Below are positions 538 to 63,493 of a stretch of DNA of 64,000 nucleotides, piece after piece (the first letter of the stretch is position 1; every line of letters begins with the position of its first letter). The stretch is from Pedococcus bigeumensis (GTDB taxonomy: Bacteria > Actinomycetota > Actinomycetes > Actinomycetales > Dermatophilaceae). Under the pieces are notes generated by a model. The model was given only the letters and a program-made list of their open reading frames with translations. It searched no databases and was not told the DNA's origin. Location of the stretch: the NCBI RefSeq assembly GCF_006438965.1, contig NZ_RCZM01000001.1, positions 435,097-499,096 on the forward strand, in the 5' to 3' direction. The translations under genes and the position numbers were made by a program.

Positions 538-3500
538 CTGACACTAGTCGCCTCGAGCGGCACCGGATCGCAGGTCGCCACCTGCAGGGCGGTTGCCACC
601 CCGCCACGGACGAGGTAGCCGCGACCAGGCAAGGCAGCACGGTCGACTGGCACCCGCACGCCGAACACGTCCGCCTCAGCCGGGCTTGCCGGACCAAGCA
701 TGATGCCGGTCCGGTGTCGCGCCAGCTCGACCGCGAGGCCGCGGTACTGCACCGAAAGGACGCCTGCATCTGAGCCGCCCACGATCAGACCACCGTCGCG
801 GTCGACCAGCGCGGCCAGCTGCTTGAGCGCCGACTCGACCGGGGTGTCGAGCAGCTCATCGGCGTTGTCCACCAGTACCGCCAGGTCCGGCACCGCCCGG
901 CGCAGTGCCATGAGCTCACCCGGCTGCGCGGGGTCGTCGCACCACACCACCTGCGGGTCGTCGCGAAGGGTCCCCCACGGACCAGGCCGCGTGGCGACGA
1001 CCGCGACCCGACGGTTGCGAGCAAGCAGGCCGACGGCTAGTGCTGTGAGGGTGGTCGAGACACCAGCACCGTTGCTGCCGCTCACGATCCACCGGCGGCC
1101 ATCACGGGTTGGGGACAGTCCCAGGGAAGTCAGCTCGTCGCCGCCGAGTCCGAGCAGCACGGTGTCGTCGGGCCCGTCAGGACGGGGCAGTGATGCTGCG
1201 TCGACCCGCCGCGGGAGCGGGTCGACCCGCCACGGCAGGCGGGTCGTGTGGGTCGCGTGCCCCGCCTCGGTCCGCCCGGACGACGGTGGGAGGGCGACCT
1301 GGACCTCGGTGCCGTCGAGCAGCACCCCCCGACCTGGTGGCTGGTGGGTGGGTAGGGCCTTCGCCGGCAGACCCGCGAGCACCGCATCGGTCCGGTCCGC
1401 GAGCCGCAGCAGGACACGGTGGGTCAGTGCCGAGGCTGCGCGGCCGACCAGGAGGGCCCGGTCACCGGCCAGGACTCCCGTGAGCCCGACTCCTGCGCCC
1501 TCCCGGAGCACCCCCAGCAGCCTCTCGACGAGGGCGCCGTGCGTGACGTCGTCGGTCCGTTGGGCGAGGACGTCCCAGTCGTCGACGAGGAGGAGCAAGG
1601 CGGGCGGCGCCACGGGGTCTCCCGCGTGCCACCACTCGGCGAAGGTGGCGTGGCGACTGGCGGCGACCTGCTGCCGGCGGTCCGCCACGTCGACCGAGAG
1701 CCGGGCGACCAGCCGCTGGAGACGTGGCAGGTCGTCCCACACCGCATGGCTGCCGCAGTGGGGCAACGACTCGACGCCGGACAGCGAACCTCCGCTCACG
1801 GCATACACGTGCAGGTGTGCCGGGTCGACGGCGGACGCGGCCCGACGGGCCACTGTCAGCAGGGCGGTGCTGCGGCCGCTTCCTGACGTGCCAGAGAAGC
1901 CCCAGTGCCCTGGCGCGGCGAGGTCGACCTCGAGGGGCCACTGACGTTGCGCCGCAGGTTCGTCCGCGAGTCCGATGGCGACACGGAAGGCAGACTCGGC
2001 GGGTGGCAGGGACTCCGCCGCGAGCTGCGTCGGCAGGGCCGCCAGCCACGGGCTGGGAGCCGGGCGCGCACCAATGAGGACGGCAGCCCCCGACACGACG
2101 TGGACGACGGTGGCCAGATCCGTGGTCACCGTTTCGTGTTCGTCCGTAGGGTCCGGCCACGGCGCCGACGTGCGGTCCCACTCCACCACCCTGACGCGTA
2201 TGCCGCGTGGCTCGGTTGCGCGGGAACGTCCCCCCGCGTGCGCCGCCTGGAACGCCACGAGCGAGCCACCACCGGCACGGGCGTAGCCGCGGCCGGGTAC
2301 GGCCCGGTCCAGCCCGGCGGCATCAGGGGTGTCGATGACGTCGTCGGAGTCGGCCCGGTCGCGGACCCGAAGGGCGATGCGCAGGTTCACGTTGGCCTTG
2401 ATGTCGGCCGTCACGACACCGGCGGGCCGTTGCGTCGCCACGACGACATGGACGCCCAGCGACCTCCCGAGAGCGGCGACGCGGACCATCCCGTCGACGA
2501 ACTCAGGGAGCTCCTCGGCCAGCGCCCGGAACTCGTCGATGACGATCACCAGCCGCGCCAAGGGGGAGGCGCTGGCCGACGACGAGGACTGGTAGGAAAC
2601 GAAGTCCGCTACATCAGCCTCGGCGAAGAGGCGCTCCCGGCGCTTGAGCTCGGCGGTCAGTGAGGCGAGGGCGCGGTCTGCGAGGTGGTCGTCGAGGTCG
2701 GTGACCAGGCCCGAGACATGGGGCAGGTTGTCGCACTCGCGGAAGGCGGCGCCGCCCTTGTAGTCGATCAGGACGAAGGAGAGGTGCTCGGGACGGTTGT
2801 GGAGCGCCAGCGACGCGACCAGGCTGCGCAGCAGCTCGGACTTGCCCGCACCGGTGGTGCCGGCCACCAGGACGTGGGGGCCGTCGGTGGCCAGGTCCAC
2901 CGTGAACGGACCATCGGTGGTCCGGCCCACGGGCACCGTCGTGCGGTGCGGGCGTCGCGCCCAGGTGCGAGCGGCGTTGGCCGCGCTGAGCCCGTCGGCG
3001 CTGTCGGGGTCGGTCAACAGCTCGGCAAGCCCGAGAGAGGTCGGCAGTGAGCTGTCCTGGGCTCCCGGGGTCGCGTCGCGAAGTGGGGCAAGTCCCCGGG
3101 AGAGCCGGTCGGCCCACCACGGGCCGACCAGGTCGACGACCAGGTCGGTGGCCGCACCACCCGGAAGGTGCAGCGAGGCGCCGGCGGGCGCGGTCAGGTC
3201 GACGACCGCTCCGGCCTCGGACGGCAGCTCGGCACGGTCGTCGTTGAGCGCCAGGACACAGATGCCGACGGAGGGGCCGTGCTCGAGGACCTCGGCGAGG
3301 TAGGGGACGCCACGCAGGGCTGTCGCCCCGTCCAGGACGACGACCGTGCGGGGTCCGGACCAGGGTTTCCCAGCCGGTGTCGACGTGGTCCGGCGCGTGC
3401 TGACCCGATGGGCCAGCTCGGTGACCGCACGCCGGGCGGTGGAGTCGGCGTCCAGGCTGGCGACCCACAGTGCGCCCGCTCGGCCGTCCGGGCGGCGGAC

Positions 3501-4913
3501 ATGGGGGAGTCGGCTCAGCCATGACCAGCTGTCGTCGGCTCGCCCGCCCCCCGCGATGAGGACCAGGTCGAGATCGAGGGGCGAGTGCAGCGTGACGAGC
3601 TGGCCGACGACGGCGCGGAGCAGCGCCAGCACCGCAGTGCGGTCGCCGCAGACACCGAGGACCCCGATGTCAGCCAACGGCAGGGCACATGGAACCCGTT
3701 CCAGCGCAGGGTGTTCCGGAGCCGGATCGCCCGGGGGACGAATGACCCGCAGGGCAGCGGGCGTGGTGCACCGCCCGATGCTGACCGTGAGTGCATCGAC
3801 GTCCGCGCGCCGCCGTTCCCAGAGCCGGGCCGTGGGCATCGTCGCGATCGCGAGGGTCTCGGCGGGATCCGGCAGCGACCGTCGTAACGTCCGGGCCTCC
3901 TCGGCGCAGGCGGCCACCACCCGCTCGCGGGCGCTGGCGAGATGACGCAGGTATGCCGCGTGCTCCACGGCATACCTGCGTCTGCTCCCCACGCGGTCAC
4001 TGAGGGTGCTGCCCGCCATGAGGATGGGACTCATCAGCGCGAAGGCGAGCATCATCGGTCCGAAGAAGATGGCCATCACGGCTGCGAACGGAACGGGCAG
4101 CGCCATCGCGATCCACGGCGCGCCGGTGCGGCGAGGCGGATCGGGCGGTATCGGAAGCGCGATCGACACCGGCGTGGGAGGGGCGAGGAGACGAGGTCGT
4201 CGGTTGACGGCTCGGGTCCCGTCCGCCCTCGCGGTGCAGGCGGCGGGCACGGCACCGGCCGGGCGCAGCACCAGAAGGGTGTCGCCGACGCGGACGACCG
4301 TACCGACGACCAGGGACTGCGGTTCGGCGCCGACCGGTGCGTCGTCGAGGTAGGTGCCATTGGTCGAACCCAGGTCCGCGAGCGTGATGGCGTCGGCGGT
4401 GACGCGGATGGACGCGTGCAGTCGGGAGAGGCCCGGGTCGTCGAGACAGACGGTGGCCTCCTCGGAGCGACCCAGGGTGTGGACACCGGGAGCGAGCTCG
4501 ACCGTCCGGCCGGCGTCGGGTCCGTGGACGATCGCCAGTGCCACGGGGGTGCGTTGGGTGACCCGGGTTGCGGGGAGTGCGAGAGCCGTGCGGCAGCCCA
4601 GCGTGATCGCCGCTCCGTCGACGAGGGGGTCGCGGCCCACGGGTGCGTCGTCGGCGAGCAGGACACCGCCAACCCACATCGCCGGGGCCTGAAGGGCGCC
4701 GTGGTTGGACGCGGGTGCGAGGGTGCCTGCGAGGGTGCCTGCGAGGGTGCCTGCGAGGGTGCCTGCGAGGGTGCCTGCGAGGGTGCCTGCGAGGGCGTCG
4801 GCGAGCTCGCGCGCCGTGGAGCCCCGGGGAGCCTCGACCTGCACCTCGAGGGGACCCGTCGAGGGCGAGGCCAGGTCTGTGGACCGCTGCACGACGGTCA
4901 GCTGGAGTCGCAT
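531..4913 (-). CDS. FHA-domain FtsK/SpoIIIE (EccC/EssC-like) membrane ATPase
   Basis: The 1460-residue protein starts with a ubiquitin-like region (about 1-110). A six-fold AGTL repeat interrupts it at residues 42-65. Next comes an FHA phosphothreonine-binding domain (about 125-216; GRS 148-150, SRLH 163-166, GSTNGT 182-187), a two-helix membrane hairpin (about 264-300) and three FtsK-type ATPase modules. Module 1 has a full Walker A (GTTGAGKSE, Lys691), Walker B (VIVIDEF) and ATQRPAG motif. Modules 2 and 3 have degenerate Walker A loops (GTSGSGRST with Arg at about 1014; GSNGAGVST with Val at about 1285). This plan is that of type VII secretion motor proteins EssC/EccC, where the first ATPase is usually the active one. 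No WXG100, EccB, EccD or EccE gene is visible. It is divergent from the Tad pilus operon. A role in protein translocation is inferred; substrate unknown. Confidence 0.85.
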   Translation of the reverse strand: MRLQLTVVQRSTDLASPSTGPLEVQVEAPRGSTARELADALAGTLAGTLAGTLAGTLAGTLAGTLAPASNHGALQAPAMWVGGVLLADDAPVGRDPLVDGAAITLGCRTALALPATRVTQRTPVALAIVHGPDAGRTVELAPGVHTLGRSEEATVCLDDPGLSRLHASIRVTADAITLADLGSTNGTYLDDAPVGAEPQSLVVGTVVRVGDTLLVLRPAGAVPAACTARADGTRAVNRRPRLLAPPTPVSIALPIPPDPPRRTGAPWIAMALPVPFAAVMAIFFGPMMLAFALMSPILMAGSTLSDRVGSRRRYAVEHAAYLRHLASARERVVAACAEEARTLRRSLPDPAETLAIATMPTARLWERRRADVDALTVSIGRCTTPAALRVIRPPGDPAPEHPALERVPCALPLADIGVLGVCGDRTAVLALLRAVVGQLVTLHSPLDLDLVLIAGGGRADDSWSWLSRLPHVRRPDGRAGALWVASLDADSTARRAVTELAHRVSTRRTTSTPAGKPWSGPRTVVVLDGATALRGVPYLAEVLEHGPSVGICVLALNDDRAELPSEAGAVVDLTAPAGASLHLPGGAATDLVVDLVGPWWADRLSRGLAPLRDATPGAQDSSLPTSLGLAELLTDPDSADGLSAANAARTWARRPHRTTVPVGRTTDGPFTVDLATDGPHVLVAGTTGAGKSELLRSLVASLALHNRPEHLSFVLIDYKGGAAFRECDNLPHVSGLVTDLDDHLADRALASLTAELKRRERLFAEADVADFVSYQSSSSASASPLARLVIVIDEFRALAEELPEFVDGMVRVAALGRSLGVHVVVATQRPAGVVTADIKANVNLRIALRVRDRADSDDVIDTPDAAGLDRAVPGRGYARAGGGSLVAFQAAHAGGRSRATEPRGIRVRVVEWDRTSAPWPDPTDEHETVTTDLATVVHVVSGAAVLIGARPAPSPWLAALPTQLAAESLPPAESAFRVAIGLADEPAAQRQWPLEVDLAAPGHWGFSGTSGSGRSTALLTVARRAASAVDPAHLHVYAVSGGSLSGVESLPHCGSHAVWDDLPRLQRLVARLSVDVADRRQQVAASRHATFAEWWHAGDPVAPPALLLLVDDWDVLAQRTDDVTHGALVERLLGVLREGAGVGLTGVLAGDRALLVGRAASALTHRVLLRLADRTDAVLAGLPAKALPTHQPPGRGVLLDGTEVQVALPPSSGRTEAGHATHTTRLPWRVDPLPRRVDAASLPRPDGPDDTVLLGLGGDELTSLGLSPTRDGRRWIVSGSNGAGVSTTLTALAVGLLARNRRVAVVATRPGPWGTLRDDPQVVWCDDPAQPGELMALRRAVPDLAVLVDNADELLDTPVESALKQLAALVDRDGGLIVGGSDAGVLSVQYRGLAVELARHRTGIMLGPASPAEADVFGVRVPVDRAALPGRGYLVRGGVATALQVATCDPVPLEATSVRW
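3944..3982. repeat. Perfect 15-bp intragenic inverted repeat made of two GTATGCCG words
   Basis: GACGCAGGTATGCCG at 3944-3958 is exactly complementary to 3968-3982, with a 9-base loop. The arms contain the words at 3951 and 3968 in opposite orientation. It lies inside the FHA-FtsK gene and is translated as RRYAVEHAAYLRHL just after the membrane hairpin, so a strong hairpin has been built inside coding DNA by choice of AGG, TAT GCC and GCA TAC codons. Confidence 0.8.
4717..4788. repeat. Six perfect 12-bp tandem repeats (AGTL repeat in protein)
   Basis: The unit GCGAGGGTGCCT is repeated six times without change and a diverged unit follows at 4789-4800. The unit length is a multiple of three. 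The repeat encodes (Ala-Gly-Thr-Leu)x6 near the N-terminus of the FHA-FtsK protein, so copy-number change by slippage would keep the frame. It is not a CRISPR array: there are no spacers. Confidence 0.9.
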
Positions 4914-4973: not shown

Positions 4974-5080
4974 CGGGCGGCGGACTGCCCGATTTCGCCC
5001 TAGTATGCCGCTGACGTCCGCATACGAGGTTAGACGTGGGGTTGGCCTCGACGCGGTGGAGACGTCAGGGGGAGGGTGAT

Positions 5081-6304
5081 GTGGACGCGGTCATGACCGT
5101 CGAGTCCGAGGTGCGGGAGCTGATCCGGCGTTCCGGGGTCGACCCTGCCCGGGACGTCGTGGAGCTGGATCGCCTGGTGCGCGACGCGGTGGCCGACTAC
5201 GACGAGCGCTCGCTGCACGGCAGCCTGCCCGCGCTCGCCAACATCGAGGACGCCGTGAAGTCGGTGAAGGATGCGGTCGCGGGGTTCGGTCCGCTCCAGC
5301 CGTACTTCGACGACCCCGACGTCGAAGAGATCTGGATCAACGAGCCGACCAAGGTGTTCATCGCGCGTGGCGGCACCGCCGAGCTGACGACTACGATGCT
5401 CACCGCCGACGGCGTCCGCGACCTCGTGGAACGGATGCTCAAGACGAGCGGCCGCCGGGTCGACCTGTCGAGCCCTTTCGTCGACGCGGTCCTGCCCGAC
5501 GGGTCGCGGCTGCACGTCGTCATCCCCGACATCACCCGGGCACACTGGTCGGTCAACATCCGCAAGTTCGTGGTGCGGGCCTCCCACCTCGACGACCTCG
5601 TCGGACTCGGCACCCTGACTCCGCACGCGGCGCGGTTCCTCGGCGCCGCAGTCGCGTCCGGGCTCAACATCCTCGTGGCCGGCGGCACCCAGGCCGGCAA
5701 GACCACCCTGCTCAACTGCCTGAGTGCTGCCATCCCGCCACGCGAACGGGTGGTGACCTGTGAAGAGGTCTTCGAGCTGAAGATCCCCCTGCGGGATGTG
5801 GCGTCGATGCAGTGCCGACAGCCGAGTCTGGAAGGCACCGGGGAGATCCCGTTGCGGCGGCTGGTCAAGGAGGCGCTGCGGATGCGCCCGTCGCGCATCA
5901 TCGTCGGCGAGGTGCGTCAGGCGGAGAGCCTCGACCTGCTGATCGCCCTCAACAGCGGGCTCCCGGGCATGTGCACCATCCACGCCAACAGCGCTCGCGA
6001 GGCCATCACGAAGATGTGCACGCTGCCGCTGCTGGCCGGGGAGAACGTCGGCAGCCGGTTCGTCGTGCCCACCGTCGCGGGGTCCATCGACATCGTCGTG
6101 CACGCCGCCCTCGAGCACGACGGCGTCCGCCGGGTGCGCGAGATCGTGGCGGTGCCCGGGCGGGTCGAGGGTGACGTCGTCGAGACGGCCGACATCTTCA
6201 CCCAGCGCGAGGGTGTGCTGCGTCGTGCCGATGGTTTCCCGCCGCACACGGACCGGTTCCGACGGGCTGGTTACGACGTCGCAGCGCTGTTGGCGCAGGA
6301 GTGA
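5081..6304 (+). CDS. tadA: Tad/Flp pilus assembly ATPase TadA (CpaF family)
   Basis: TadA is the cytoplasmic secretion ATPase that powers Flp pilus assembly. The protein has the CpaF layout: an N-terminal all-alpha/PAS-like region including 'GPLQPYFDDPDVEEIWIN' (typical of CpaF), a Walker A GGTQAGKTTLL loop, an Asp-box-type stretch 'RVVTCEEVFELKI', a Walker-B-like 'RMRPSRIIVGEVR' and 'TIHANSAREAI' with the conserved His. I chose the GTG at 5081 (407 residues) because GGGAGG lies about 8 bases upstream. An upstream GTG at 5036 would add 15 residues without a better site. It heads a seven-gene pilus operon; tadB follows 4 bases after its stop. Confidence 0.92.
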   Translation: MDAVMTVESEVRELIRRSGVDPARDVVELDRLVRDAVADYDERSLHGSLPALANIEDAVKSVKDAVAGFGPLQPYFDDPDVEEIWINEPTKVFIARGGTAELTTTMLTADGVRDLVERMLKTSGRRVDLSSPFVDAVLPDGSRLHVVIPDITRAHWSVNIRKFVVRASHLDDLVGLGTLTPHAARFLGAAVASGLNILVAGGTQAGKTTLLNCLSAAIPPRERVVTCEEVFELKIPLRDVASMQCRQPSLEGTGEIPLRRLVKEALRMRPSRIIVGEVRQAESLDLLIALNSGLPGMCTIHANSAREAITKMCTLPLLAGENVGSRFVVPTVAGSIDIVVHAALEHDGVRRVREIVAVPGRVEGDVVETADIFTQREGVLRRADGFPPHTDRFRRAGYDVAALLAQE

Positions 6305-6308
6305 CACC

Positions 6309-7175
6309 GTGACCGGAATCGTCGTAGGGCTGCTGCTGGGGTGTGGTCTGTTCTGCCTCTGGTGGTCAGCCTGGGTGCCGCAGCCGAAGCAGTCGGGACC
6401 GCGTCGTACCTCCCTGATGGACCGGTTGCGCGACGAGCTGGTCCAAGCGGGCTATCAGTCGGTCGGACCACGCAGCCTGGTCGTGGCGTGCCTGATGGCG
6501 TTCGTGGTCGTAGGTCTGCTGGTCCTCGCGACCACGCGCGTGGGGCCGGTGGCCCTCTGTTTCGCCCTCATCGCGGGGTACGGACCCTTCGCCCTGGTGC
6601 GCATGCGGGCAAGGCGGCGGCGTGCGAACCTGCGCGAGCTGTGGCCGGACGCCGTCGACAACATCACTTCCGGCGTACGTGCCGGCCTGGCCCTGCCGGA
6701 GGCTCTCAGCCAGCTGGCGATCCGTGGGCCCGAGGAGCTGCGGCCGGCGTTTCGCGCCTTTGCGGAGGACTACCGGGCGAGTGGGCGGTTCCACGACTGC
6801 CTCGACCGGCTCAAGGACCGGCTCAGCGATCCGGTCGGCGACCGGCTCGTCGAGTCGCTCCGGATCGCCCGGGAGGTGGGCGGCAGCGACCTCGGCCGGC
6901 TGCTGCGCACCCTCTCGACCTTCCTGCGCGAGGACAGTCGGACCCGGTCCGAGCTGGAGACCCGCCAAGGGTGGACCGTTAACGCGGCCCGGCTCGCTGT
7001 CGCGGCACCCTGGATCGTCCTGGCGATGCTGTGCACCCGACCCGAGTCGATCCAGGCCTATGCGACCACGACCGGCACGCTGATCCTGCTCGTCGGCGCG
7101 GCGGTGTCGGCCGCGGCCTACCGGATCATGGTCTTCATCGGGCGGCTGCCCGAGGACGAACGAGTGCTGCGGTGA
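6309..7175 (+). CDS. tadB: Tad pilus inner-membrane platform protein TadB
   Basis: A 288-residue type II secretion F-domain protein. It opens with a membrane helix (GIVVGLLLGCGLFCLWW), has a second helix pair near residues 58-95, and then the cytoplasmic F domain with 'LPEALSQLAIRGPEELRPAF' and 'DRLVESLRIAREVGGSDLG', signatures of TadB. Two C-terminal helices end the protein. TadB and TadC form the membrane platform on which TadA acts. The GTG at 6309 is preferred because it begins 4 bases after tadA; the frame is open further upstream but only overlaps tadA. Confidence 0.9.
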   Translation: MTGIVVGLLLGCGLFCLWWSAWVPQPKQSGPRRTSLMDRLRDELVQAGYQSVGPRSLVVACLMAFVVVGLLVLATTRVGPVALCFALIAGYGPFALVRMRARRRRANLRELWPDAVDNITSGVRAGLALPEALSQLAIRGPEELRPAFRAFAEDYRASGRFHDCLDRLKDRLSDPVGDRLVESLRIAREVGGSDLGRLLRTLSTFLREDSRTRSELETRQGWTVNAARLAVAAPWIVLAMLCTRPESIQAYATTTGTLILLVGAAVSAAAYRIMVFIGRLPEDERVLR

Positions 7176-8104
7176 GCGCGTCGCTGGCTGGCGCGGCCAT
7201 CGGGTTCGCACTGGGGCTGGGGCTTCTCCTGGTTTGGGCCGGTCTGCCGCGCAACCGTCGGGCCACCCTCAACGACCGGCTGCTGCCCTACCTGCGCGAC
7301 GCGCCACGCCCATCGCGGCTGCTGGCCAGTCGCCAGGTCGGCGGGACCGGCGCCCTGCGGGTGTTGGCTGGGCCGGTGGTCGCCGATCTCGGCGGTCGCA
7401 TCGAGTCCATCCTCGGCGGTTCAGCGTCGGTCAAGCGACGACTGCTGCGAGCGGGCAAGGCTCCGGACGTCGACCGGTTCCGCGCCGAGCAGGTCCTGTG
7501 GGGTGCTGTAGGGCTGCTCGTCGGTCTCGTCCTCGGCAGCGTCATCTGGCTCGGCCAAGGCGGGTCGGTGGTTCGGGCGGTCCTCATCGTGCTGTGCAGC
7601 GTTGGCGTCGGCGTCGTTGCACGCGACCAGTGGCTCAGCCACGAGGCCAACGTGCGTGAGCAGCGGATGCTCAGCGAGTTCCCCACCATCGCCGAGCTAT
7701 TGGCCCTGGCCGTGGGCGCGGGCGAGGGCGCCGTGGGTGCGCTGGAACGCGTCTGCCGCCTCTCGCACGGCGAGCTGTCCGCCGAGCTCGGGCGCTGCCT
7801 CGCTGACGCGCGGGCCGGGGCCAACCTGCCGACGGCACTGCAGGGGCTGGCCGACCGCACCGGCCTGATGAGCCTCTCGAGATTCGTCGACGGCATGGTC
7901 ATCGCGGTCGAGCGGGGGACGCCCCTGGCCGACGTGCTCCGGGCACAGGCGCAGGACGTCCGTGAGACCGGGCGGCGTGCCGTCATGGAAGCCGGCGGCA
8001 AGAAGGAGATCGCGATGATGGTCCCCGTCGTGTTCCTCGTGCTGCCGATCACCGTCCTGTTCGCCGTCTTCCCGGGTTTCGCCTTCCTGCGGTTCTCGAT
8101 CTGA
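7172..8104 (+). CDS. tadC: Tad pilus inner-membrane platform protein TadC
   Basis: A 310-residue F-domain protein paired with TadB. Features are an N-terminal helix (ASLAGAAIGFALGLGLLLVW), a mid pair of helices (about residues 108-150), the F-domain motif 'LSEFPTIAELLALAVGAGEGAVGALERV', and a C-terminal helix ending in 'VLPITVLFAVFPGF', as in TadC. The GTG start overlaps the tadB stop (GTGA), a coupled start. Together with TadA and TadB it forms the pilus extrusion machine. Confidence 0.9.
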   Translation: MSASLAGAAIGFALGLGLLLVWAGLPRNRRATLNDRLLPYLRDAPRPSRLLASRQVGGTGALRVLAGPVVADLGGRIESILGGSASVKRRLLRAGKAPDVDRFRAEQVLWGAVGLLVGLVLGSVIWLGQGGSVVRAVLIVLCSVGVGVVARDQWLSHEANVREQRMLSEFPTIAELLALAVGAGEGAVGALERVCRLSHGELSAELGRCLADARAGANLPTALQGLADRTGLMSLSRFVDGMVIAVERGTPLADVLRAQAQDVRETGRRAVMEAGGKKEIAMMVPVVFLVLPITVLFAVFPGFAFLRFSI

Positions 8105-8157
8105 CCTCCACCAGCACTTCTGATCTGCCACCAGCCACAGCACACGAGAGGAACCTC

Positions 8158-8367
8158 ATGACCACCCTTCACCGATCCGTGGTGCGCGCTCAGCTCGCTG
8201 CGGCACGCGCCATCCGAGGCGGCAGCCGACGCAACGAGCGTGGCGACGTCCCGGGCTGGGTCCTGATCACGTTGATGACGGCTGGCCTGGTGGCGGCCCT
8301 GTGGGCAGTGGCCGAGGACCAGCTCAAGGCGCTGTTCACCGACGCGCTCAACAGCGCACGGCGGTAG
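8158..8367 (+). CDS. Short Flp-like pilin / DUF4244-type pilus protein
   Basis: The 69-residue protein has a basic leader of about 28 residues ending in RNERGD, then a single hydrophobic segment (VPGWVLITLMTAGLVAALWAVA) and a short amphipathic tail. This is the plan of actinobacterial Flp pilins, where a prepilin peptidase cuts at the Gly before the hydrophobic helix; here the candidate site is G|D next to the helix. A GAGAGG ribosome site lies 6-11 bases before the ATG. Its place between tadC and the TadE-like genes supports the major-pilin role. No prepilin peptidase gene is visible in the window. Confidence 0.8.
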   Translation: MTTLHRSVVRAQLAAARAIRGGSRRNERGDVPGWVLITLMTAGLVAALWAVAEDQLKALFTDALNSARR

Positions 8368-8370
8368 CTC

Positions 8371-8766
8371 GTGCGGTGGGCCGCGGCCAGACGGCGGGGC
8401 GAAGCAGGTGCTGCCATCGTCGACTTCGTCCTGGTCTCGGTGCTCGTGTCCGTGCTGTTCCTCGCCGTGTTCCAGGTCGGCGTGGCCCTGTACATTCGCA
8501 ACACCATCATCTCGTGTGCCTCCGAGGGCGCCCGCTTCGGCGCGCGAGCTGACGCTGACCCGGACGATGGGGCAGCCCGTACTCGCGAGCTGATCGATGC
8601 CTCGCTCTCGGCTCGGTTTGCCCAGGACGTCTCTGCCGAGGTCGAGGATGCAGGCGGCGTGCAGGTCGTGTCCGTGCACGTCCGGGCGCCGCTGCCCGTC
8701 CTAGGCCCCTTCGGTCCCGACAGCGGCTTCGACCTCGTGGGCCGGGCCTTCCTGGAGCGGCAGTGA
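8371..8766 (+). CDS. TadE-like pseudopilin
   Basis: A 131-residue protein with a short basic N-terminus, the TadE motif region 'GEAGAAIVDFVLVSVLVSVL' (Glu/Asp next to the helix start), one membrane segment, and a small extracytoplasmic domain. TadE-like minor pilins are processed and added to the Flp pilus. The GTG start lies 3 bases after the pilin stop, and the stop overlaps the next start (TGATG). Confidence 0.85.
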   Translation: MRWAAARRRGEAGAAIVDFVLVSVLVSVLFLAVFQVGVALYIRNTIISCASEGARFGARADADPDDGAARTRELIDASLSARFAQDVSAEVEDAGGVQVVSVHVRAPLPVLGPFGPDSGFDLVGRAFLERQ

Positions 8767-9230
8767 TGCTCGCCCTGCGTCGGCGACTCCTCGCCCTGAA
8801 GGCGGCGGGCGAGCATGGCAGCGCCATCGTGGAGTTCGTCTTCCTCGCCGTGCTGCTGATGGTGCCGCTCTTCTACCTCGTGATGACCTTGTCCCGGATC
8901 CAGGCAGGGGCGTATGCCGCGTCGACCGCGGCGCGCGAAGCCGGCCGGGCCTTCGTGACGGCTTCCGAGCCCGCGGCGGCCGAGGAGCGAGCTCTCGCCG
9001 CCGCACGGATCGCCTTCGAGGACCAAGGATTTGGCGTGGACGAGGCGCAGCTGACGATGAAGTGTGACGGCACCCCGTGCCTGCGCCCAGATGGTCGGAT
9101 CGAGATGTCCACGACGGTCACGGTGCCGCTACCCCTGGTCCCCTCGTTCGTCCGCGGCGTGGTGCCGCTGGAGGTGCCTGTCACCGCCAGCCACGTGGCG
9201 GTCGTCGACCGGTTCAGGGGACAGCCATGA
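8766..9230 (+). CDS. TadE/TadG-like pseudopilin
   Basis: A 154-residue protein with the TadE-type signature 'GSAIVEFVFLAVLLMVPLFY' at residues 17-36 and an extracytoplasmic domain that contains two cysteines (KCDGTPC), possibly a disulfide. It is a second minor pilin in the operon. ATG 8766 overlaps the previous stop by one base; a GTG one codon earlier is also possible. Residues '[13 protein letters not shown]' match the helix-following segment common to TadE/TadG families. Confidence 0.82.
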   Translation: MLALRRRLLALKAAGEHGSAIVEFVFLAVLLMVPLFYLVMTLSRIQAGAYAASTAAREAGRAFVTASEPAAAEERALAAARIAFEDQGFGVDEAQLTMKCDGTPCLRPDGRIEMSTTVTVPLPLVPSFVRGVVPLEVPVTASHVAVVDRFRGQP

Positions 9231-9697
9231 AAGAGGCCTGCCGTCGCCGCTTGCACCGTGGCGGCGGGGAAGCCGGTCAGGTGACGCTCTTGGTCCTCGG
9301 CTTCAGCATCGTGGCGATCCTGCTCATCGTCGGGACGGTCGCGGTCACCTCCGTCCAGCTGTCCCGGATGAGGCTGCTCGACGCGGCCGACGGCGCGGCC
9401 CTGGATGCGGCGGACTCCCTGGACCTCGGTGCCTACCGGGGCGGGCTGGGGGAGGCGGTCGCCGTCAACGACGCCACGGTCCGCGGGACGGCGGTGCAGT
9501 ACCTCGCCGAGCGACCGAGGCCGGAGAGCATGCTCGCCTGGCAGGTGGCTCCTGGTACGGGTAGCCCGGACGGACAGACCGCGGTGGTCCGCATCTCCGG
9601 CCAGGCCGATCTGCCGCTGGTCGGCGGTCTGCTCGACACCATGGGCGGCTCGGTGACGATCACCGTCGAGTCCCGCGCTCGCGCCAACCTCGAGTAG
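9227..9697 (+). CDS. TadG-like pilus-assembly protein
   Basis: A 156-residue protein starting at an ATGA overlap with the previous gene. It has a membrane segment at about residues 17-42 (VTLLVLGFSIVAILLIVGTV) followed by 'QLSRMRLLDAADGAALDAADSL', the pattern of the TadG N-terminal domain, and a short extracytoplasmic domain. It lacks the long VWA domain of full TadG. It is the last gene of the tad operon; a hairpin follows about 100 bases downstream. Confidence 0.75.
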   Translation: MKEACRRRLHRGGGEAGQVTLLVLGFSIVAILLIVGTVAVTSVQLSRMRLLDAADGAALDAADSLDLGAYRGGLGEAVAVNDATVRGTAVQYLAERPRPESMLAWQVAPGTGSPDGQTAVVRISGQADLPLVGGLLDTMGGSVTITVESRARANLE

Positions 9698-9798
9698 CGA
9701 CGCCGTAGTCCCTGAGCGGGCGCGCCGACGGCGCCGCGGACGGCACCGCGGACGGCCACAAGTGGGCCGGGAGGCCACCACGCGGCATACCCCAGTGT

Positions 9799-11112: not shown

Positions 11113-12075
11113 GTGGCTCCCCGCACCGTCGACGTCCCTGCCCTGGTCGAATCGGCCAGGGCAGGGTCGCCTCGTGCCGTGGCGCGGTTGATCTCGCTCG
11201 TCGAGGACGGCCATCCGGCGCTGCGTGAGGTGATGGCAGCCCTCGCACCCCACACTGGCCGAGCGCACATCATCGGGATCACCGGCAGTCCGGGCGTCGG
11301 CAAGTCCACGTCCACCAACGCGCTCGTCGGCGCACTGCGCAAGCAGGGCAAGCGGATCGGCATCCTCGCCGTCGACCCGTCCTCGCCGTTCTCCGGTGGT
11401 GCGCTGCTCGGTGACCGGGTGCGGATGCAGGACCACGCCCTCGACCCCGACGTCTACATCCGCTCGATGGCCAGCCGCGGTCACCTGGGCGGGCTCTCGT
11501 GGACCACGCCCCAGGCGCTGCGCGTCCTGGACGCGGCCGGGTGCGACGTGATCCTTGTCGAGACCGTCGGCGTGGGCCAGTCCGAGGTCGAGGTCGCTGG
11601 CCTCGCTGACACGACGATCGTGCTGCTGGCGCCCGGCATGGGTGACGGCATCCAGGCCGCCAAGGCGGGCATCCTCGAGATCGGCGACCTCTTCGTCGTC
11701 AACAAGGCCGACCGCGACGGCGCCGACGCGACGGTCCGCGACATCCGGCACATGATCTCCCTGGGTGACCGCACTGAGCCCAACCTGTGGCGCCCGCCGG
11801 TGCTGAAAACCGTTGCGCAGCAAGGCCAGGGGATCGACGAGGTCATCGAGGCCATCAAGAAGCACACCGCGTGGATGGAGGAGTCCGGCGCGCTGCGTGA
11901 GCGTCGCATCCGACGCGCAGGAGACGAGATCGAGTCGATCGCGCTGCAGGCCCTGCGCGCCAAGATGGGCGACCTGCGCCACGGCAACGGCGTGGACGAG
12001 CTCGCCGCCGCCGTCGTGGACGGCACGACCGACCCGTATGCCGCGGCTGACCAGATCGTGGCCGCCCTCGCCTGA
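11113..12075 (+). CDS. meaB: MeaB-type GTPase, chaperone of B12-dependent acyl-CoA mutase
   Basis: A G3E-family GTPase of 320 residues. It has GSPGVGKST (Walker A, about residues 59-67), '[19 protein letters not shown]' (family signature), [10 protein letters not shown] (G3 region) and NKAD (G4). MeaB protects and reactivates adenosylcobalamin-dependent mutases such as methylmalonyl- or isobutyryl-CoA mutase. The GTG start directly follows the thiolase stop. A mutase large subunit is encoded 11.4 kb away at 23509, a likely client, although another mutase may exist outside the window. Confidence 0.93.
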
Positions 12076-12184: not shown

Positions 12185-12652
12185 TCAGTCGCGGCCGGAG
12201 GTGACCAGGCCGTCCCAGTCCCAGCGCGGCATACCGAAGCCGGCGGGGACGCTCGCCCCCGACTCGTGGAACTCGTTGACGTCGGCGACCGCCCACTCCA
12301 TGTAGGCCCGCAGGGCCGCCCGGAACTCCGGATCCGCCGGCAGCCCGACGTCGTCGGCGGCGGCGACGAAGCAGTCGACGAACCGCGGGCCCAGCTCGAG
12401 CATCCCGGGGCCGTTGCCCGCGTGCATGCGCAGCATCGACGAGTGGTCGCTCAGCTGCTCGGAGAACCGTGCTGGTCCGCCGAGCACCTCGGCCCAGTAG
12501 GCGGCGAGCCGCTCGACGTGCTGGGGGTTCATGTCCTGCTTGCTGAACGGGTGGTTGAGCAACGGATCGGCGAGGCACCGCTCGTGGTGAGCGCGGGCCA
12601 GGGCGAGGAACGCCTCGTCGCCCCCGGCGAACTCGTACAGGCTCGGTCGCAT
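12185..12652 (-). CDS. Truncated-hemoglobin-like globin
   Basis: A 155-residue globin of the short 2-on-2 type. It begins 'YEFAGGDEAFLALARAHHER' (helix A/B) and has 'LNHPFSKQDMNPQHVERLAAYW' (region of the E helix) and 'GGPARFSEQLSDHSSMLRMHAG', where the downstream His residues are candidates for the proximal heme ligand. Such proteins bind O2/NO or take part in redox defence. The gene stands alone, divergent from the kinase gene; the C-terminal 25 residues after the globin fold are extra. Assigned from pattern, not an alignment. Confidence 0.75.
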   Translation of the reverse strand: MRPSLYEFAGGDEAFLALARAHHERCLADPLLNHPFSKQDMNPQHVERLAAYWAEVLGGPARFSEQLSDHSSMLRMHAGNGPGMLELGPRFVDCFVAAADDVGLPADPEFRAALRAYMEWAVADVNEFHESGASVPAGFGMPRWDWDGLVTSGRD

Positions 12653-23357: not shown

Positions 23358-23392
23358 CCCAGCCACCCGGCATACCCACCCTTGCTCGCCCT

Positions 23393-51596: not shown

Positions 51597-52387
51597 GCGA
51601 CGGCCCCTCCAGCAGCGTCGTCTCGCTCGAGGTCGAGGGGGGGATCGCGACGATCCGGCTCAACCGCCCGCCGATGAACGCGCTCAACGCCGAGGTGCAG
51701 TCCGCCCTGTCCGCCGCCGCGATCGAGGCCGGTCAGCGACGCGACGTCTACGGCGTCATCCTCTACGGCGGCGAGAAGGTCTTCGCAGCGGGTGCGGACA
51801 TCAAGGAGATGGAGAGGATGTCATACACGGACATGGCCGACCACTCCGGCTCCCTCCAGGACTTCACCCGCACCATCGCCAAGATCCCGAAGCCGACCGT
51901 CGCCGCCATCACCGGCTACGCCCTCGGTGGCGGGTGCGAGGTGGCGCTCGCGTGCGACTTCCGGGTCGCCGCCAAGAACGCCAAGCTGGGCCAGCCCGAG
52001 ATCCTGCTCGGCGTCATCCCCGGCGCCGGCGGCACGCAGCGACTGGCTCGCCTGGTCGGGCCGGCCAAGGCCAAGGACATCGTCTTCTCCGGACGTTTCG
52101 TGTCCGCTGACGAGGCACTCGCGATCGGGCTCGTCGACGAGGTCGTCGAGGCCGAGGACGTGTATGCCGCCGCGAAGGCGCGGCTCGCGCCGTACGTCGG
52201 CGGACCGGCCTACGCCATCCGCGCCGCCAAGGAGGCCATCGACCGAGGCCTGGAGACCGACCTCGAGACCGGCCTGGAGATCGAGCGGATGCTGTTCAGC
52301 TCCCTGTTCGCCACCAAGGACCGCGAGATCGGGATGAAGTCGTTCGTCGAGAACGGTCCCGGCAAGGCGAAGTTCGAGGGCGCCTGA
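51593..52387 (+). CDS. Enoyl-CoA hydratase/isomerase family protein
   Basis: A 264-residue crotonase-fold enzyme. The oxyanion-hole segments are 'FAAGADIKEM' (residues about 62-71) and 'GYALGGGCEVALACDFR', and the two catalytic glutamates are expected at GGCEVAL and 'QPEILLGVIPGAGGTQRLAR'; both Glu are present, supporting hydration of trans-2-enoyl-CoA. Next to the methyltransferase gene (3 bases apart). The same neighbourhood, echA17 beside methyltransferase genes, exists in Mycobacterium tuberculosis (from memory). Confidence 0.92.
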   Translation: MSDGPSSSVVSLEVEGGIATIRLNRPPMNALNAEVQSALSAAAIEAGQRRDVYGVILYGGEKVFAAGADIKEMERMSYTDMADHSGSLQDFTRTIAKIPKPTVAAITGYALGGGCEVALACDFRVAAKNAKLGQPEILLGVIPGAGGTQRLARLVGPAKAKDIVFSGRFVSADEALAIGLVDEVVEAEDVYAAAKARLAPYVGGPAYAIRAAKEAIDRGLETDLETGLEIERMLFSSLFATKDREIGMKSFVENGPGKAKFEGA

Positions 52388-53378: not shown

Positions 53379-54044
53379 GTGACTTCGGCAGCAAACGCGG
53401 ACATGTCGCCGTCCGACCACGGCGAGCGCGCCCGGCACGGTCCCACCGGGTCGGTCCGGCCGCTTGCCTGGTTCCGCTGGGTCGGCTGGGCGATGGCCAA
53501 CAAGGCGTTCACGCGGCACCACCTGCTGAGCTACCTGCGGATGGCGCGAGCCAGTGCCCGCTACCCGTCGCTGCGGTTCGAGGGCCCCTGCTTCATCGGG
53601 CCGGACGTCCGGTTCGAGGTGCGCGAGGGCTACGGCCGCCTCGTGGTGGGCGCCTACACCCACTTCGGGGCGCACGCCCGGGTGCGGGCCCACGAGGGGA
53701 CCCTGCGGATCGGTGCGAAGTCGGTCATCGGCATCCGCAACACCCTCAACTGCTGGATCGACATCTCGATCGGCGAGGCCTGCCTCTTCGGTGACGACAT
53801 CTACGTCTGCGACTTCGACCACGTGACGACCTCGCTCGAGGTGCCGATCAAGGACCAGGGCATCGTGAAGTCGCCGGTCCGGATCGGTGACGACGTCTGG
53901 CTCGGCACCAAGGTCGTCGTCACGCGAGGCACCGACATCGGTGACCACTGCGTCGTCGCGGCCTCGGCCGTCGCTCGTGGTGAGTACGCGCCGCGGTCGA
54001 TCATCGCCGGCATACCGGGCAGGGTCGTGAAGGTGCGCACCTGA
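53379..54044 (+). CDS. Hexapeptide-repeat (left-handed beta-helix) acyltransferase, Rv3034c-like
   Basis: A 221-residue protein with consecutive hexapeptide turns such as 'CFIGPDVRFEVREGYGRLVV', 'TLRIGAKSVIGIRNTLNCWI' and 'VRIGDDVWLGTKVVVTRGTD', ending 'PRSIIAGIPGRVVKV' as in maltose/galactoside O-acetyltransferases. The His in 'CDFDHVTTS' is the candidate catalytic base. An acyl group is moved from acyl-CoA to a sugar hydroxyl, in mycobacteria probably on methylated glucan. The IAGIPG segment uses an ATA codon inside a GTATGCCG-complement word at 54008. GTG start. Convergent with the GH57 gene. Confidence 0.88.
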   Translation: MTSAANADMSPSDHGERARHGPTGSVRPLAWFRWVGWAMANKAFTRHHLLSYLRMARASARYPSLRFEGPCFIGPDVRFEVREGYGRLVVGAYTHFGAHARVRAHEGTLRIGAKSVIGIRNTLNCWIDISIGEACLFGDDIYVCDFDHVTTSLEVPIKDQGIVKSPVRIGDDVWLGTKVVVTRGTDIGDHCVVAASAVARGEYAPRSIIAGIPGRVVKVRT

Positions 54045-54061: not shown

Positions 54062-55597
54062 TCAGGTGGCGTGCGGAACGGTCACGCGCGCGTCGAGTGA
54101 GGGGAACGCCCCGTCCCTGGCCGCCAACCGGGAGGCCTCGGCGCGTGCGTCGTCACGGCGGCCGTCCTGGACGAGCTGGGCCAGCTGGTGGAAGTCGCGG
54201 CGGTGCAGCTCGGCCCGTCGCCTGGCGTAGTCGACCGACTGCCCCCGCGTCACGAGGAACGCCCAGTCGCTCGACAGGGCATGGAACAGCGACGTGAGCA
54301 GCTGGTCGAGGTCGGGCCTGCGGGTCTGCAGCCGACCGGCGGCGCGTTCCCTGCCGACGAGGTCGAGCCAGCGACGTTGCAGCCACTCGTTCTCGTGCGC
54401 GATCTGCCGCACGCCCGGGCCGTCCCAGACCGAGAAGTCCTTACCGGCACCCCACGACCCGGGCCCCAGGTCCAGCTCGCCCGCAACGTGTCCGGCGGCG
54501 AGCGCCTGCCCGACGGTGGTGACCGTGACACCGGCGGCGCGCAGCGCACGGATCGCCTTGCCCAGGAAGGCCGGGCCTTCGTGCCACCAGTGACCGAACA
54601 GCTCGGTGTCGTATGCCGCGACGACCAGTCCCGGGGTCCCGGTCACCTCGTGCGCGTGGCCGAGCCGCGCACGGACCGCGCTCACGAAGTGCTCCACGTC
54701 GGCGTCGACCTGGGCTGCTGCGGCGACGGGGTCGTAGGGCGACTTGTGCTCGACGCCCACGTCGGGCTCGGTGATGGCCCAGAGCCGGATGCCGGTGAAC
54801 TCCTCGCGGGCGTGGAAGTCGCGGTAGGCGGCGGCGCCGGGATACCCGCTGCGGGAGGACCAGATCAGGTTGGTGACGTCGAGGTCGCGGGGGACCGCCA
54901 ACAGGTCGCTCCCGGCAACCCGCCACGCACCGTGCGGGTGGCCGCCGGCGTCTCCGACGGTCTGCTCGTCGACGACGAAGTGGCTGATCCCGGCCGAGGT
55001 GAACGCGGACGCCAGCGCGGGGGACCACGCGCACTCCGGCGCCCAGATGCCTCTGGGACGGACCCCGTGGCGCCAGGCGCTGTCGGCCAGACCTGAGTCG
55101 AGGGCCGTCGCCACGAACTCGGGCTGGAGCAGCGGCAGCAACGGATGCGCGGCCGGACCGCCCAGCAGCTCGACCACGCCGCCGTCGCGCAGCGAACGCA
55201 GCACGGGAGCGCCTCCAGCCCGCCAGCGCGACTCGAGCAGCCCCTGGACCCGGCTCGCGGCGGCATACTCGTGGGCAGCGGTCCCGCGACGGTGGGGGTC
55301 GTCGTCGAAGCCCATCTCACGGGCCCGCTGCTGCCACAGGCCGACCCACGTCTGGGTGTCGGCTCGCATGCGCGGGTGGTCGAGCTGGGCGGCCAGCACG
55401 GGGGTGACCCCGAGGGTGAGGACGTCGCGATGACCTTCTGCCGCAAGGGAGTCCAGCTCGGCGACCAATGGGACGTAGGACTCGGCCCAGGCCTGGAACA
55501 GCCATTCCTCGCCCAGTGGCCACACCCCGTGACCGGGCAGCCAGGGGAGGTGTGAGTGCAGGACGAGGCAGAAGGAGCCCGGCACCGGAGGAGTCAC
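54062..55597 (-). CDS. Glycoside hydrolase family 57 protein, branching-enzyme type (Rv3031-like)
   Basis: A 511-residue GH57 enzyme. It starts 'FCLVLHSHLPWLPGHGVWPL' (motif 1), has 'RGIWAPECAWSP' with the nucleophile Glu (motif 3) and 'VVAAYDTELFGHWWHEGPAF' with the acid/base Asp (motif 4), and a C-terminal helical domain. This set of motifs is that of AmyC-type alpha-1,4-glucan branching enzymes. In mycobacteria Rv3031 is placed in methylglucose-lipopolysaccharide synthesis. So the window has two branching enzymes of unrelated fold (GlgB and this one). Followed by the MmcQ-like gene upstream on the same strand. Confidence 0.9.
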   Translation of the reverse strand: MTPPVPGSFCLVLHSHLPWLPGHGVWPLGEEWLFQAWAESYVPLVAELDSLAAEGHRDVLTLGVTPVLAAQLDHPRMRADTQTWVGLWQQRAREMGFDDDPHRRGTAAHEYAAASRVQGLLESRWRAGGAPVLRSLRDGGVVELLGGPAAHPLLPLLQPEFVATALDSGLADSAWRHGVRPRGIWAPECAWSPALASAFTSAGISHFVVDEQTVGDAGGHPHGAWRVAGSDLLAVPRDLDVTNLIWSSRSGYPGAAAYRDFHAREEFTGIRLWAITEPDVGVEHKSPYDPVAAAAQVDADVEHFVSAVRARLGHAHEVTGTPGLVVAAYDTELFGHWWHEGPAFLGKAIRALRAAGVTVTTVGQALAAGHVAGELDLGPGSWGAGKDFSVWDGPGVRQIAHENEWLQRRWLDLVGRERAAGRLQTRRPDLDQLLTSLFHALSSDWAFLVTRGQSVDYARRRAELHRRDFHQLAQLVQDGRRDDARAEASRLAARDGAFPSLDARVTVPHAT

Positions 55598-56753: not shown

Positions 56754-57521
56754 CTACAGCTCCACCACGGCGAACAGGTCGAGACAGGCGTCCTCGGGAT
56801 CGCCCAGGAGGAAGTCGTCGACCGTCACCGACCCGACCACGCCATGCAGGTCGTCGCGCCAGTCGTCGGGCGCCATGTCCTGTTGCGCCACGACGATCGA
56901 CCCGTACTCGTCCTCCCAGCGCAGCAACCGCTCGCCGTGACCGAGGCCCAGCACCGTCACCCCCGCGCCAGGTAGCCAGCGACCCAGCTCACCGGCCAGC
57001 TCGTCGGCGTCGTACTCGCGGCAGTGGTAGAGGTTCGTCGGCCGCTCCCGCCGCCCGAGCCCGGGGGAGAAGGTCGCCCGGTTCGGCGTCGACAGCACCA
57101 CGACACCGCCCGCGCGCGTGACGCGGGCCAGCTCGCGCACGTAGTCGTCCGGCGTCCAGATGTGCTCGAGCACCTGGAGCGAGACCGTCAGGTCCGCCGC
57201 GCCCGTCGCCAGTGGCAGCGCCGTCAGCCCACCCCGGAGGTATGCCGTCCGCTCACCTCCGTGGGTCCGTGCGGCGTGCGACGTGGTCGCTGAGTCGTAG
57301 TCGACGCCGACCACGCACAAGTCCGGCCACGCCTCGCGAAGGAGGCCCGCGGCATACCCTTCACCGCAGCCGGCGTCGAGGACGACGCGTGGCGTGGTCG
57401 GAACCCAGCCGGGGACGGCGGCATACCCGGCCTCGTGGCGACGGAACCAGTAGTTCTCGGCCGCGATGCCAGGGATGGTGCGCTCACCGGTGATGGTCAG
57501 CGCGGTGGGTGGTGTGGGCAC
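56754..57521 (-). CDS. SAM-dependent methyltransferase, Rv3030-like
   Basis: A 255-residue class I methyltransferase. Its opening 'LTITGERTIPGIAAENYWFR' followed by RHE is a hallmark of the mycobacterial Rv3030 family, which is implicated in 6-O-methylation of glucan in methylglucose lipopolysaccharide. The SAM motif is VVLDAGCGEGYAAG; 'LQVLEHIWTPDDYVRELARV' and 'GGVVVLSTPNRATFSPG' follow. GTG 57521 has GGAGG 5 bases upstream. Divergent from etfB. Confidence 0.9.
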   Translation of the reverse strand: MPTPPTALTITGERTIPGIAAENYWFRRHEAGYAAVPGWVPTTPRVVLDAGCGEGYAAGLLREAWPDLCVVGVDYDSATTSHAARTHGGERTAYLRGGLTALPLATGAADLTVSLQVLEHIWTPDDYVRELARVTRAGGVVVLSTPNRATFSPGLGRRERPTNLYHCREYDADELAGELGRWLPGAGVTVLGLGHGERLLRWEDEYGSIVVAQQDMAPDDWRDDLHGVVGSVTVDDFLLGDPEDACLDLFAVVEL

Positions 57522-59563: not shown

Positions 59564-59585
59564 GTATGCCGGTCACCCGGCATAC
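59564..59585. terminator. Second hairpin after etfA made of paired GTATGCCG words
   Basis: GTATGCCGG (59564-59572), loop TCAC, CCGGCATAC (59577-59585). A perfect 9-bp stem directly following the classic terminator. The arms are two opposed GTATGCCG words, the same design as at 43352-43391 and 3944-3982. Confidence 0.7.
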
Positions 59586-63441: not shown

Positions 63442-63493
63442 CCGACGCGTTGCTGCCGGGCGGAGTCAGCCGGCCACACGGCATACGCCGGTG

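Follow-up and report, generated by a model that had tools for sequence, protein, structure and literature searches.

The window analysed here is a stretch of 64,000 nucleotides from the actinobacterium Pedococcus bigeumensis (contig NZ_RCZM01000001.1, positions 435,097 to 499,096). It holds 39 exact copies of the 8-base word GTATGCCG, 20 on the plus and 19 on the minus strand, and a locus for a Tad/Flp pilus. Some copies are arranged as inverted pairs. The word probably serves one actinobacterial family as a DNA uptake sequence, for a competence system of the Tad/Flp-pilus type. The features are listed below in window coordinates; every single copy is an exact match to the word.

1799..1806, minus strand: copy
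2198..2205, plus strand: copy
3951..3958, plus strand: copy, left arm of an inverted pair
3968..3975, minus strand: copy, right arm of the pair
3951..3975, no strand: this inverted pair, stem longer than the words, -22.4 kcal/mol, within a predicted 1,461-aa reading frame on the minus strand
5003..5010, plus strand: copy, about 70 bp upstream of the predicted tadA start
5081..9697, plus strand: Tad/Flp pilus locus tadA-tadB-tadC-(flp-like)-tadE-tadE-tadG, from Pfam matches, the small flp-like gene having none; candidate uptake machinery, putatively linked to the word
8912..8919, plus strand: copy within the second tadE-like gene
9783..9790, minus strand: copy
12036..12043, plus strand: copy within a meaB-like gene
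12227..12234, minus strand: copy
13688..13695, minus strand: copy
15529..15536, plus strand: copy
17568..17575, minus strand: copy
17830..17837, plus strand: copy
21945..21952, plus strand: copy
23368..23375, minus strand: copy
25550..25557, minus strand: copy
27333..27340, plus strand: copy
28396..28403, minus strand: copy
29491..29498, plus strand: copy
32587..32594, minus strand: copy
33505..33512, plus strand: copy
36054..36061, plus strand: copy
36665..36672, minus strand: copy
39891..39898, plus strand: copy
43355..43362, plus strand: copy, left arm of an inverted pair
43381..43388, minus strand: copy, right arm of the pair
43355..43388, no strand: this pair, a perfect terminator-like hairpin between convergent predicted genes, 39 nt past the upstream stop, -37.3 kcal/mol
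45948..45955, plus strand: copy
49036..49043, plus strand: copy
50496..50503, minus strand: copy
52162..52169, plus strand: copy
54008..54015, minus strand: copy
54611..54618, plus strand: copy
55261..55268, minus strand: copy
57240..57247, plus strand: copy
57350..57357, minus strand: copy
57419..57426, minus strand: copy, with the one at 57350 the window's only same-strand pair within 1 kb
59564..59571, plus strand: copy, left arm of an inverted pair
59578..59585, minus strand: copy, right arm of the pair
59564..59585, no strand: this terminator-like pair, 58 nt past a predicted stop codon, -16.7 kcal/mol
63479..63486, minus strand: copy

A composition model predicts 2.24 copies in the window, and 100 dinucleotide shuffles averaged 0.88 and never exceeded 4. 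The initial annotation of this DNA had reported the same 39 copies with the same 20/19 split, and its estimate of a 17-fold excess over about two copies expected from composition is right. It had proposed that the word and other 8-mers be counted in the full genome and in relatives, and that the conservation of copies be compared with that of their flanks. The genome (4.22 Mb in 13 contigs) holds 2,551 copies, far above expectation, 1,264 on one strand and 1,287 on the other, or about one per 1.7 kb. The reversed word, used as a control, occurs 74 times. One-letter variants are rare in the window, with at most 13 copies each; the most frequent is GGATGCCG with 13. The over-representation is extreme, exact, genome-wide and present on both strands, as is expected of an uptake sequence.

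Larger samples were drawn from the same genome, consisting of the window and 37 further stretches (760,804 bp, 438 copies). Outside the eight letters there is a weaker preference, with G at position +9 in 70% of copies, C in 50% and A in 5% at +8, and G in 53% at -1. Several hairpin copies read AGGTATGCCGCGTG. The balance between strands is tighter than random (chi-square 7.7 over 34 stretches).

One explanation for so frequent a word is a codon-pair or dipeptide bias, and another is an interspersed element. A simple codon model predicts 656 genes in the sample. Sense copies mostly encode Tyr-Ala (183 of 203, in one frame) and this dipeptide is 1.16-fold over-represented, as the codon explanation would have it. 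However, 100 synonymous shuffles within genes, which preserve every protein and each gene's codon use, gave 21.3 copies in sense and 9.1 in antisense orientation where 203 and 131 are observed, or about 30 against 334. The shuffle is even lenient to the codon model, because 183 of the 449 TAT codons sit inside the word; TAT is the rare tyrosine codon, TAC being used 3,826 times. The word is also denser between genes (96 copies, 0.87 per kb) than in them (342 copies, 0.53 per kb), and the flanks of the 39 window copies are unrelated. Codon-pair bias, composition and interspersed elements were rejected as the cause on these grounds, and there is next to no chance that a codon bias or an element underlies the word. 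The earlier claim that the excess is not a codon-pair effect alone holds, and so does the remark that the word occurs between genes and as inverted pairs.

Inverted pairs are a second property of the word. Among predicted gaps of 20 to 600 bp, those between convergent genes hold 16 copies (2.41 per kb), those between tandem genes 50 (1.91 per kb) and those between divergent genes 23 (1.22 per kb). Neighbouring copies less than 100 bp apart are plus then minus in 20 cases, minus then plus in six, both minus in two and both plus in one. Many close pairs form long stems, and several lie 7 to 60 nt past a predicted stop codon. In the whole genome the arrangement GTATGCCG-N4-34-CGGCATAC occurs 100 times where 12 are expected from copy number, an enrichment of about 8-fold; the control gives 0. 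Raised intergenic density and terminator-like hairpin pairs are both looked for in an uptake sequence. Some of the pairs may have been co-opted as terminator-like hairpins. A scan of the window against Rfam gave no match above the gathering score.

The window's genus also holds Phycicoccus sp. Soil802 (G144), Root101 (G142) and "Knoellia koreensis" DB2414S (G141), names that were matched through word counts. Conservation was measured in alignments of 166 kb with G144 (83.7% identity) and 147 kb with G142 (79.8%). Exact words are retained in 88 of 114 cases in G144 and 44 of 95 in G142, against 27% and 18% of flanking 8-mers. A TAT codon inside the word remains TAT in 47 of 52 and 33 of 47 cases; the corresponding figures for other TAT codons are 8 of 55 and 2 of 49. 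Conservation extends to words between genes (12 of 15 and 6 of 13). The copies least retained are those in unusual reading frames, such as four minor frames in G142 with none of nine kept.

The copies are not placed independently of each other. The initial annotation had called them evenly spaced, which is true of each strand alone: same-strand intervals have a coefficient of variation of 0.626, against 0.851 +/- 0.034 when strand labels are shuffled. For all copies together the spacing is barely more even than random, with 85 intervals below 500 bp where 113 are expected. Successive copies alternate in orientation. In the 34 stretches longer than 19 kb, which carry 436 of the 438 sampled copies and were used for the tests of alternation and pairs, 289 of 402 neighbours alternate, against 201 +/- 10 after label shuffling; in the window 28 of 38 do so. 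This fraction, 0.719, exceeds that of every one of 53 control 8-mers (mean 0.484, maximum 0.589).

Close copies on the same strand are scarce. Below 1 kb there are 34 same-strand pairs against 87.5 +/- 6.8 expected, the minimum in 2,000 shuffles being 68. By distance, and compared with a uniform expectation, 6 are observed against 30.9 below 250 bp, 4 against 30.5 in the next bin and 24 against 59.9 at 0.5-1 kb. Beyond 1 kb the counts are 43 against 58.5, 48 against 57.0 and, at 2-3 kb, 133 against 109.6, so that the exclusion has a range of 1-2 kb. Opposite-strand pairs in the same bins number 48, 32, 73, 68, 65 and 129, against 34.6, 34.2, 67.2, 65.5, 63.9 and 122.9. At distances too large for hairpins, plus-then-minus and minus-then-plus pairs are about equally unrestricted in the window's genome, so strand is what matters and not the segment between the words.

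The same behaviour is found in relatives. In G144, 155 of 214 neighbours alternate (null 107 +/- 7); in G142 the effect is weaker (85 of 143, null 72.5 +/- 5.8). In 31 further word-rich loci, which were hand-picked and pooled and are in part congeneric with the window, 195 of 308 alternate (null 162.4 +/- 8.4). Across the 106 family genomes with at least 400 copies, pairs at spacer 200-230 are on the same strand in 815 cases against 1,837 expected and convergent in 1,147 against 918; the window's genome has 4 same-strand and 15 convergent pairs of this kind.

Evidence on the nature of the exclusion is provided by pairs whose two copies are each private to a different genome and were located on a shared alignment. 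Within 1 kb of each other, such copies are on the same and on opposite strands in 6 and 4 cases (own genome and G144), 7 and 3 (own and G142), and 9 and 8 (G144 and G142), so they show no exclusion. Pairs coexisting in one genome, summed over classes, number 10 and 44, 7 and 29, and 9 and 38. The first two comparisons pooled give an odds ratio of 8 (Fisher p = 1e-4; separately 0.012 and 0.005), although the numbers are small and the comparisons have genomes in common. Since private copies exclude nothing, the word can occupy either position, and only the simultaneous presence of two on one strand is avoided. The same-strand exclusion is a redundancy of function, strand by strand, and not a constraint of sequence. 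Compensating turnover, in which a loss is matched by a nearby same-strand gain, was also considered; it goes in the right direction without reaching significance when labels are shuffled (p = 0.30, 0.057 and 0.175).

High counts of the word are confined to part of one family, taken here in the sense of GTDB, with Knoellia, Humibacillus, Terrabacter, Intrasporangium, Serinicoccus and Ornithinimicrobium among its genera. In the NCBI taxonomy, Knoellia and Pedococcus belong to Intrasporangiaceae and Luteipulveratus to Dermacoccaceae. Among 186 family genomes in 53 genera, counts of 400 or more occur in 106 genomes from 30 genera, counts of 100-399 in 18 and lower counts in 62; the highest count is 4,724 (G100). 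In 183 genomes sampled from 18 other families of the order the maximum is 167, in a genome with 184 reversed words. Among 35 named genomes searched, high counts were found in Humibacillus xanthopallidus (3,225 and 2,908), Metallococcus carri (3,111), Knoellia sinensis (2,485), Terrabacter sp. Root85 (2,300), Serinicoccus chungangensis (1,518) and Intrasporangium calvum PheN6 (1,225). Low counts were found in Janibacter indicus and Phycicoccus avicenniae (18 each), Marihabitans asiaticum (41) and Cellulomonas (24 and 31). Janibacter sp. HTCC2649 corresponds to G077. Pedococcus cremeus falls in a neighbouring genus (g44), so the name Pedococcus is used loosely here. Two genomes, G114 (genus g42) and G008 (genus g4), have low counts (50 and 37) within word-rich genera and are candidates for recent loss.

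Some genera of the family use other words. A search of twelve genomes with few copies of GTATGCCG, each sampled over 60 kb, showed another leading word in some of them. GGATGCCG reaches 2,099-4,480 copies in genera g9, g15 and g51, against 241-1,336 in the remaining family genomes. In G178 it has 48 coding copies against 9.7 after synonymous shuffling, and 8.2 kb of intergenic DNA hold another 28. Its loci also show alternation (71 of 109, null 56.8 +/- 5.1), carried by G178. G036 and G037 are mixed, with 1,217 and 1,189 copies of GTATGCCG and 2,195 and 2,099 of GGATGCCG, as if in transition.

A further word, GTACGCCG, is abundant in genera g3 (2,366, 2,618 and 785 copies), g35 (2,111, 4,185 and 3,903), g6 (1,359), g7 (2,216) and g5 (2,529 in G013, 1,125 in G012, and 345 and 347 in two others). 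Its coding copies exceed the synonymous shuffle in G090 (35 against 8.8) and G002 (38 against 9.7), and weakly in G084 (23 against 11, none between genes). GTACGCCG is probably a dialect word and is rated no higher because it is built of common codons, is also present in high-GC actinobacteria outside the family, and has weakly enriched inverted pairs and no strand exclusion (see below). The evidence for clade-specific dialects is strong for GGATGCCG and moderate for GTACGCCG. Within the window's own genus, G143 and G146 have raised counts of both GTATGCCG (625 and 836) and GTACGCCG (865 and 1,011), either because the dialect is in transition or because the word decays through TAT to TAC.

Finally, Janibacter and Marihabitans have a replacement word, CGAAGGGGG, that is unrelated to GTATGCCG. 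Across 182 kb from ten loci of Janibacter and its genus, its 8-mer CCCCCTTC has 89 coding copies against 16.9 after synonymous shuffling and 16 copies in 27.7 kb between genes. The 9-mer occurs 95 times in these loci and its next variant, CGAAGGGAG, 26 times. GAAGGGRG is found at 0.73 per kb in the Janibacter loci and 0.80 in one Marihabitans locus, against 0.00-0.08 in 14 other sets. Close pairs (60 bp) of GAAGGGGG are plus-minus in seven cases and minus-plus in five, with none on the same strand. Below 500 bp, CGAAGGGGG has 9 same-strand against 30 opposite-strand pairs; its overall alternation is marginal (57 of 95, null 49.4, p = 0.06). Loci of the Janibacter type and of Marihabitans with their own abundant CGAAGGGGG are L038-L040, L089, L090, L092, L093, L110, L128, L216 and L099.

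No word of this kind was found in the samples from g11, g16 and g53. In Intrasporangium-type genomes (L076, L077, L118) a longer word, CGTATGCCGCTGRGC, is present in 15 of the 16 copies read, with several exact inverted hairpins. In G083, CGATGCGG was not accepted as a dialect, with 66 coding copies against 14 after synonymous shuffling and none in 3.9 kb between genes; in the coding DNA of this genome (L061-L063), CGATGCGG / ACCGCATCG is strongly over-represented.

The family carries genes for competence. ComEC was found in 180 of the 186 genomes; the six without it are fragmented or incomplete, two being more than 90% complete. ComEA is present at all 20 comEC loci chosen. The Tad locus is conserved across the family and beyond in 53 loci, namely those of 80 named loci that exceed 15 kb and have matches; in L112 and L120 the four small genes have no match, and in six other loci tadG has none. 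The host thus has the genes that an uptake sequence calls for, and these do not separate genomes with and without GTATGCCG; Tad minor pilins and ComEA are likewise present in both. The gene order of the window's Tad locus is that of the tad clusters of Micrococcus luteus, both of which are required for transformation there (PMC4322843).

Two side observations concern the same genome. One locus (L013, contig C3, 14,046 bp) has no copies of the word and carries Type ISP restriction-modification, PLD-helicase and HEPN-domain genes; it is probably a defence island or mobile element. In the window, a palindromic operator-like motif, TCTGTGCACAGA, occurs at 56130-56210, 63490-63565 and 40649, clustered at two places as if both were under one regulator. 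Its 8-mer TCTGTGCA is found nine times in the window and seven times in the other 696,804 bp sampled.

Copy number, dialects, hairpins, conservation, restriction to a family and competence genes together make up much of the pattern by which the uptake sequences of Neisseriaceae were identified (PMC3630211). The initial annotation had suggested DNA uptake among other roles, and the comparative evidence favours this suggestion; strand exclusion, the dialects and the window's Tad locus had not been part of it. In the model proposed here, a putative surface receptor would prefer fragments that bear the word. Through uptake and recombination, copies would then build up to a density of about one per 1.7 kb and persist. 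The taste of the receptor would have shifted in some genera, to GGATGCCG and probably GTACGCCG, and been replaced in Janibacter and Marihabitans with CGAAGGGGG, while some inverted pairs would have come to serve as terminator-like hairpins.

The same-strand exclusion points to a word that is read on a single strand. Plus copies would serve one channel (for instance single-stranded entry of the strand that bears them) and minus copies the other, and each channel would need only one copy per imported tract of roughly 1-2 kb. Since Gram-positive bacteria bring in a single strand of the DNA that they take up, a word that picks this strand would render further copies on it redundant as far as the imported tract reaches. 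A wider claim can be put forward only tentatively, at rather less than even chances. It holds that uptake sequences exist outside two Gram-negative families and are read by strand, each strand having its own ladder as the orientation of the word decides which strand enters. Only same-strand copies would then be redundant, the spacing would record strand-specific import lengths, and at least two words would have evolved independently in this family.

The main rival is a Chi-like site, that is, an orientation-specific regulatory site of an end-resection enzyme (RecBCD or AdnAB type), in which each orientation serves enzymes arriving from one side. Chi is an asymmetric 8-mer read in an orientation-specific way, like the word in question, and redundancy among same-strand copies alone would follow naturally. 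In Janibacter, where GTATGCCG is lacking, another word has taken its place, as a site that is always needed would demand; this fits a Chi-like site as well as it fits uptake. But Chi of E. coli (GCTGGTGG), in a 300-kb control, is polarised (56/14) and lacks the exclusion, with 14 same-strand pairs below 1 kb against 10.8 expected. The orientation of GTATGCCG has no link to GC skew (131/137 and 86/84), so no replication bias was found, although the assignment of replichores is rough because the skew is weak in this genome. As far as this test goes, the earlier argument from strand balance against polarity of the kind seen in Chi or KOPS (FtsK-orienting polar sequences) holds. The 8-fold enriched hairpin pairs have no role at a Chi-like site, there is no comparable word in the 190 kb of Phycicoccus-type genomes, and several changes of word in one family would be unexpected for a housekeeping enzyme. 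A Chi-like site is thus unlikely. A strand mark is less likely still. Here an asymmetric methyltransferase or nickase would label one strand per site, for repair strand discrimination or nicking, which accounts for the asymmetric word and for two independent even ladders and leaves the hairpins unexplained. The enzyme would have to be dispensable and fast-changing to account for entire genera with low counts and for the changes of word. The word is not a palindrome and has no 4-base palindrome inside, as read directly from its letters; a palindromic orphan methyltransferase is therefore excluded, and with it that form of the methylation target named in the initial annotation. Least probable of the three, and very improbable, is the site of a protein that structures the nucleoid or segregates the chromosome. 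Such a site would be genome-wide, conserved and even on each strand, as the word is, but it should not be redundant strand by strand, and the word has no GC-skew polarity and is absent from some sister genera and from the 18 other families sampled. With some sister genera lacking the word or using another, the segregation mark proposed earlier is not favoured.

Several results also weigh against an uptake sequence, or against its being read strand by strand. Strand exclusion is absent from the GTACGCCG loci (52 of 97 neighbours alternate, null 49.8), and inverted pairs of GTACGCCG are just 1.3- to 2.4-fold enriched in its seven richest genomes, from a test of 28 chosen genomes of the 186. Alternation in the Knoellia loci is not significant (23 of 43), and of nine groups of GTATGCCG loci taken singly only three are significant at p < 0.05 (Serinicoccus, Terrabacter/Terracoccus and four metagenome-assembled genomes). 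One of two controls, GTACGCCG in genomes without that dialect, gave p = 0.029 (23 of 42). On whole genomes, the direction of exclusion is shared by 28 of 30 genera, g22 and g48 deviating. The Phycicoccus-type loci (190 kb) have no clear word of this kind. No gene among ComEC, T2SSE, ComEA and the Tad genes tracks the word, and ComEC, ComEA and Tad also occur where GTATGCCG is scarce, for example in Janibacter and Phycicoccus; competence genes therefore support the possibility of uptake and not its specificity. A shortage of words in acquired DNA would count in favour of uptake: low-GC genes, probably acquired, have 0.19 words per kb against 0.76 in the GC-richest fifth, and the 14-kb contig with the Type ISP gene has none. 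This gradient may partly be one of composition; small contigs are also word-poor, with GC content as a confounder. For the transformation of family members, the role of the word is one that we infer from sequence. Uptake in Haemophilus influenzae is reported to be independent of orientation (PMC1939737), so strand-resolved exclusion is no textbook property and would be a difference from that system.

If the word is an uptake sequence, an independent actinobacterial system that has Tad/Flp genes, dialects and a second, unrelated word would make the origin of uptake specificity comparable across cases. It would predict partners of gene exchange in a common soil family and suggest a way to transform it. 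Strand-resolved exclusion would be genomic evidence on how such a word is read, of a kind that could also be sought in the genomes of Neisseria and Haemophilus. The uptake sequences described in the sources excerpted belong to two Gram-negative families, Neisseriaceae and Pasteurellaceae, and a literature search that covered few subscription papers and no preprints found no actinobacterial uptake sequence described.

Among known systems, HIP1 of cyanobacteria (GCGATCGC) is likewise an octamer over-represented in a clade. It differs in being a palindrome that overlaps methyltransferase sites (PMC4390886), the type of site that GTATGCCG does not form. The uptake signal sequences of Pasteurellaceae share a short core, a density of about one per kb, even spacing and some hairpin pairs at gene ends (PMC7811141, PMC1939737); the even spacing is attributed to Karlin et al. 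(PMC1939737). They differ in orientation-independent uptake, in the word and in the phylum, and their receptor is also unsettled, ComN being predicted (PMC12616744). The DNA uptake sequences of Neisseriaceae belong to a type IVa pilus, whereas the actinobacteria studied here have Tad/Flp genes and no ComP-like receptor was found in them. In the family of Pedococcus one genus group uses an unrelated word, and strand exclusion is not mentioned for Neisseriaceae in the excerpts consulted. Both systems have thousands of copies, dialects linked to phylogeny, inverted pairs linked to terminators and a spacing close to the length of conversion fragments (PMC3630211, PMC2397512); in Neisseria these fragments measure 1.1-1.7 kb (PMC2397512), the same order as the exclusion range of 1-2 kb.

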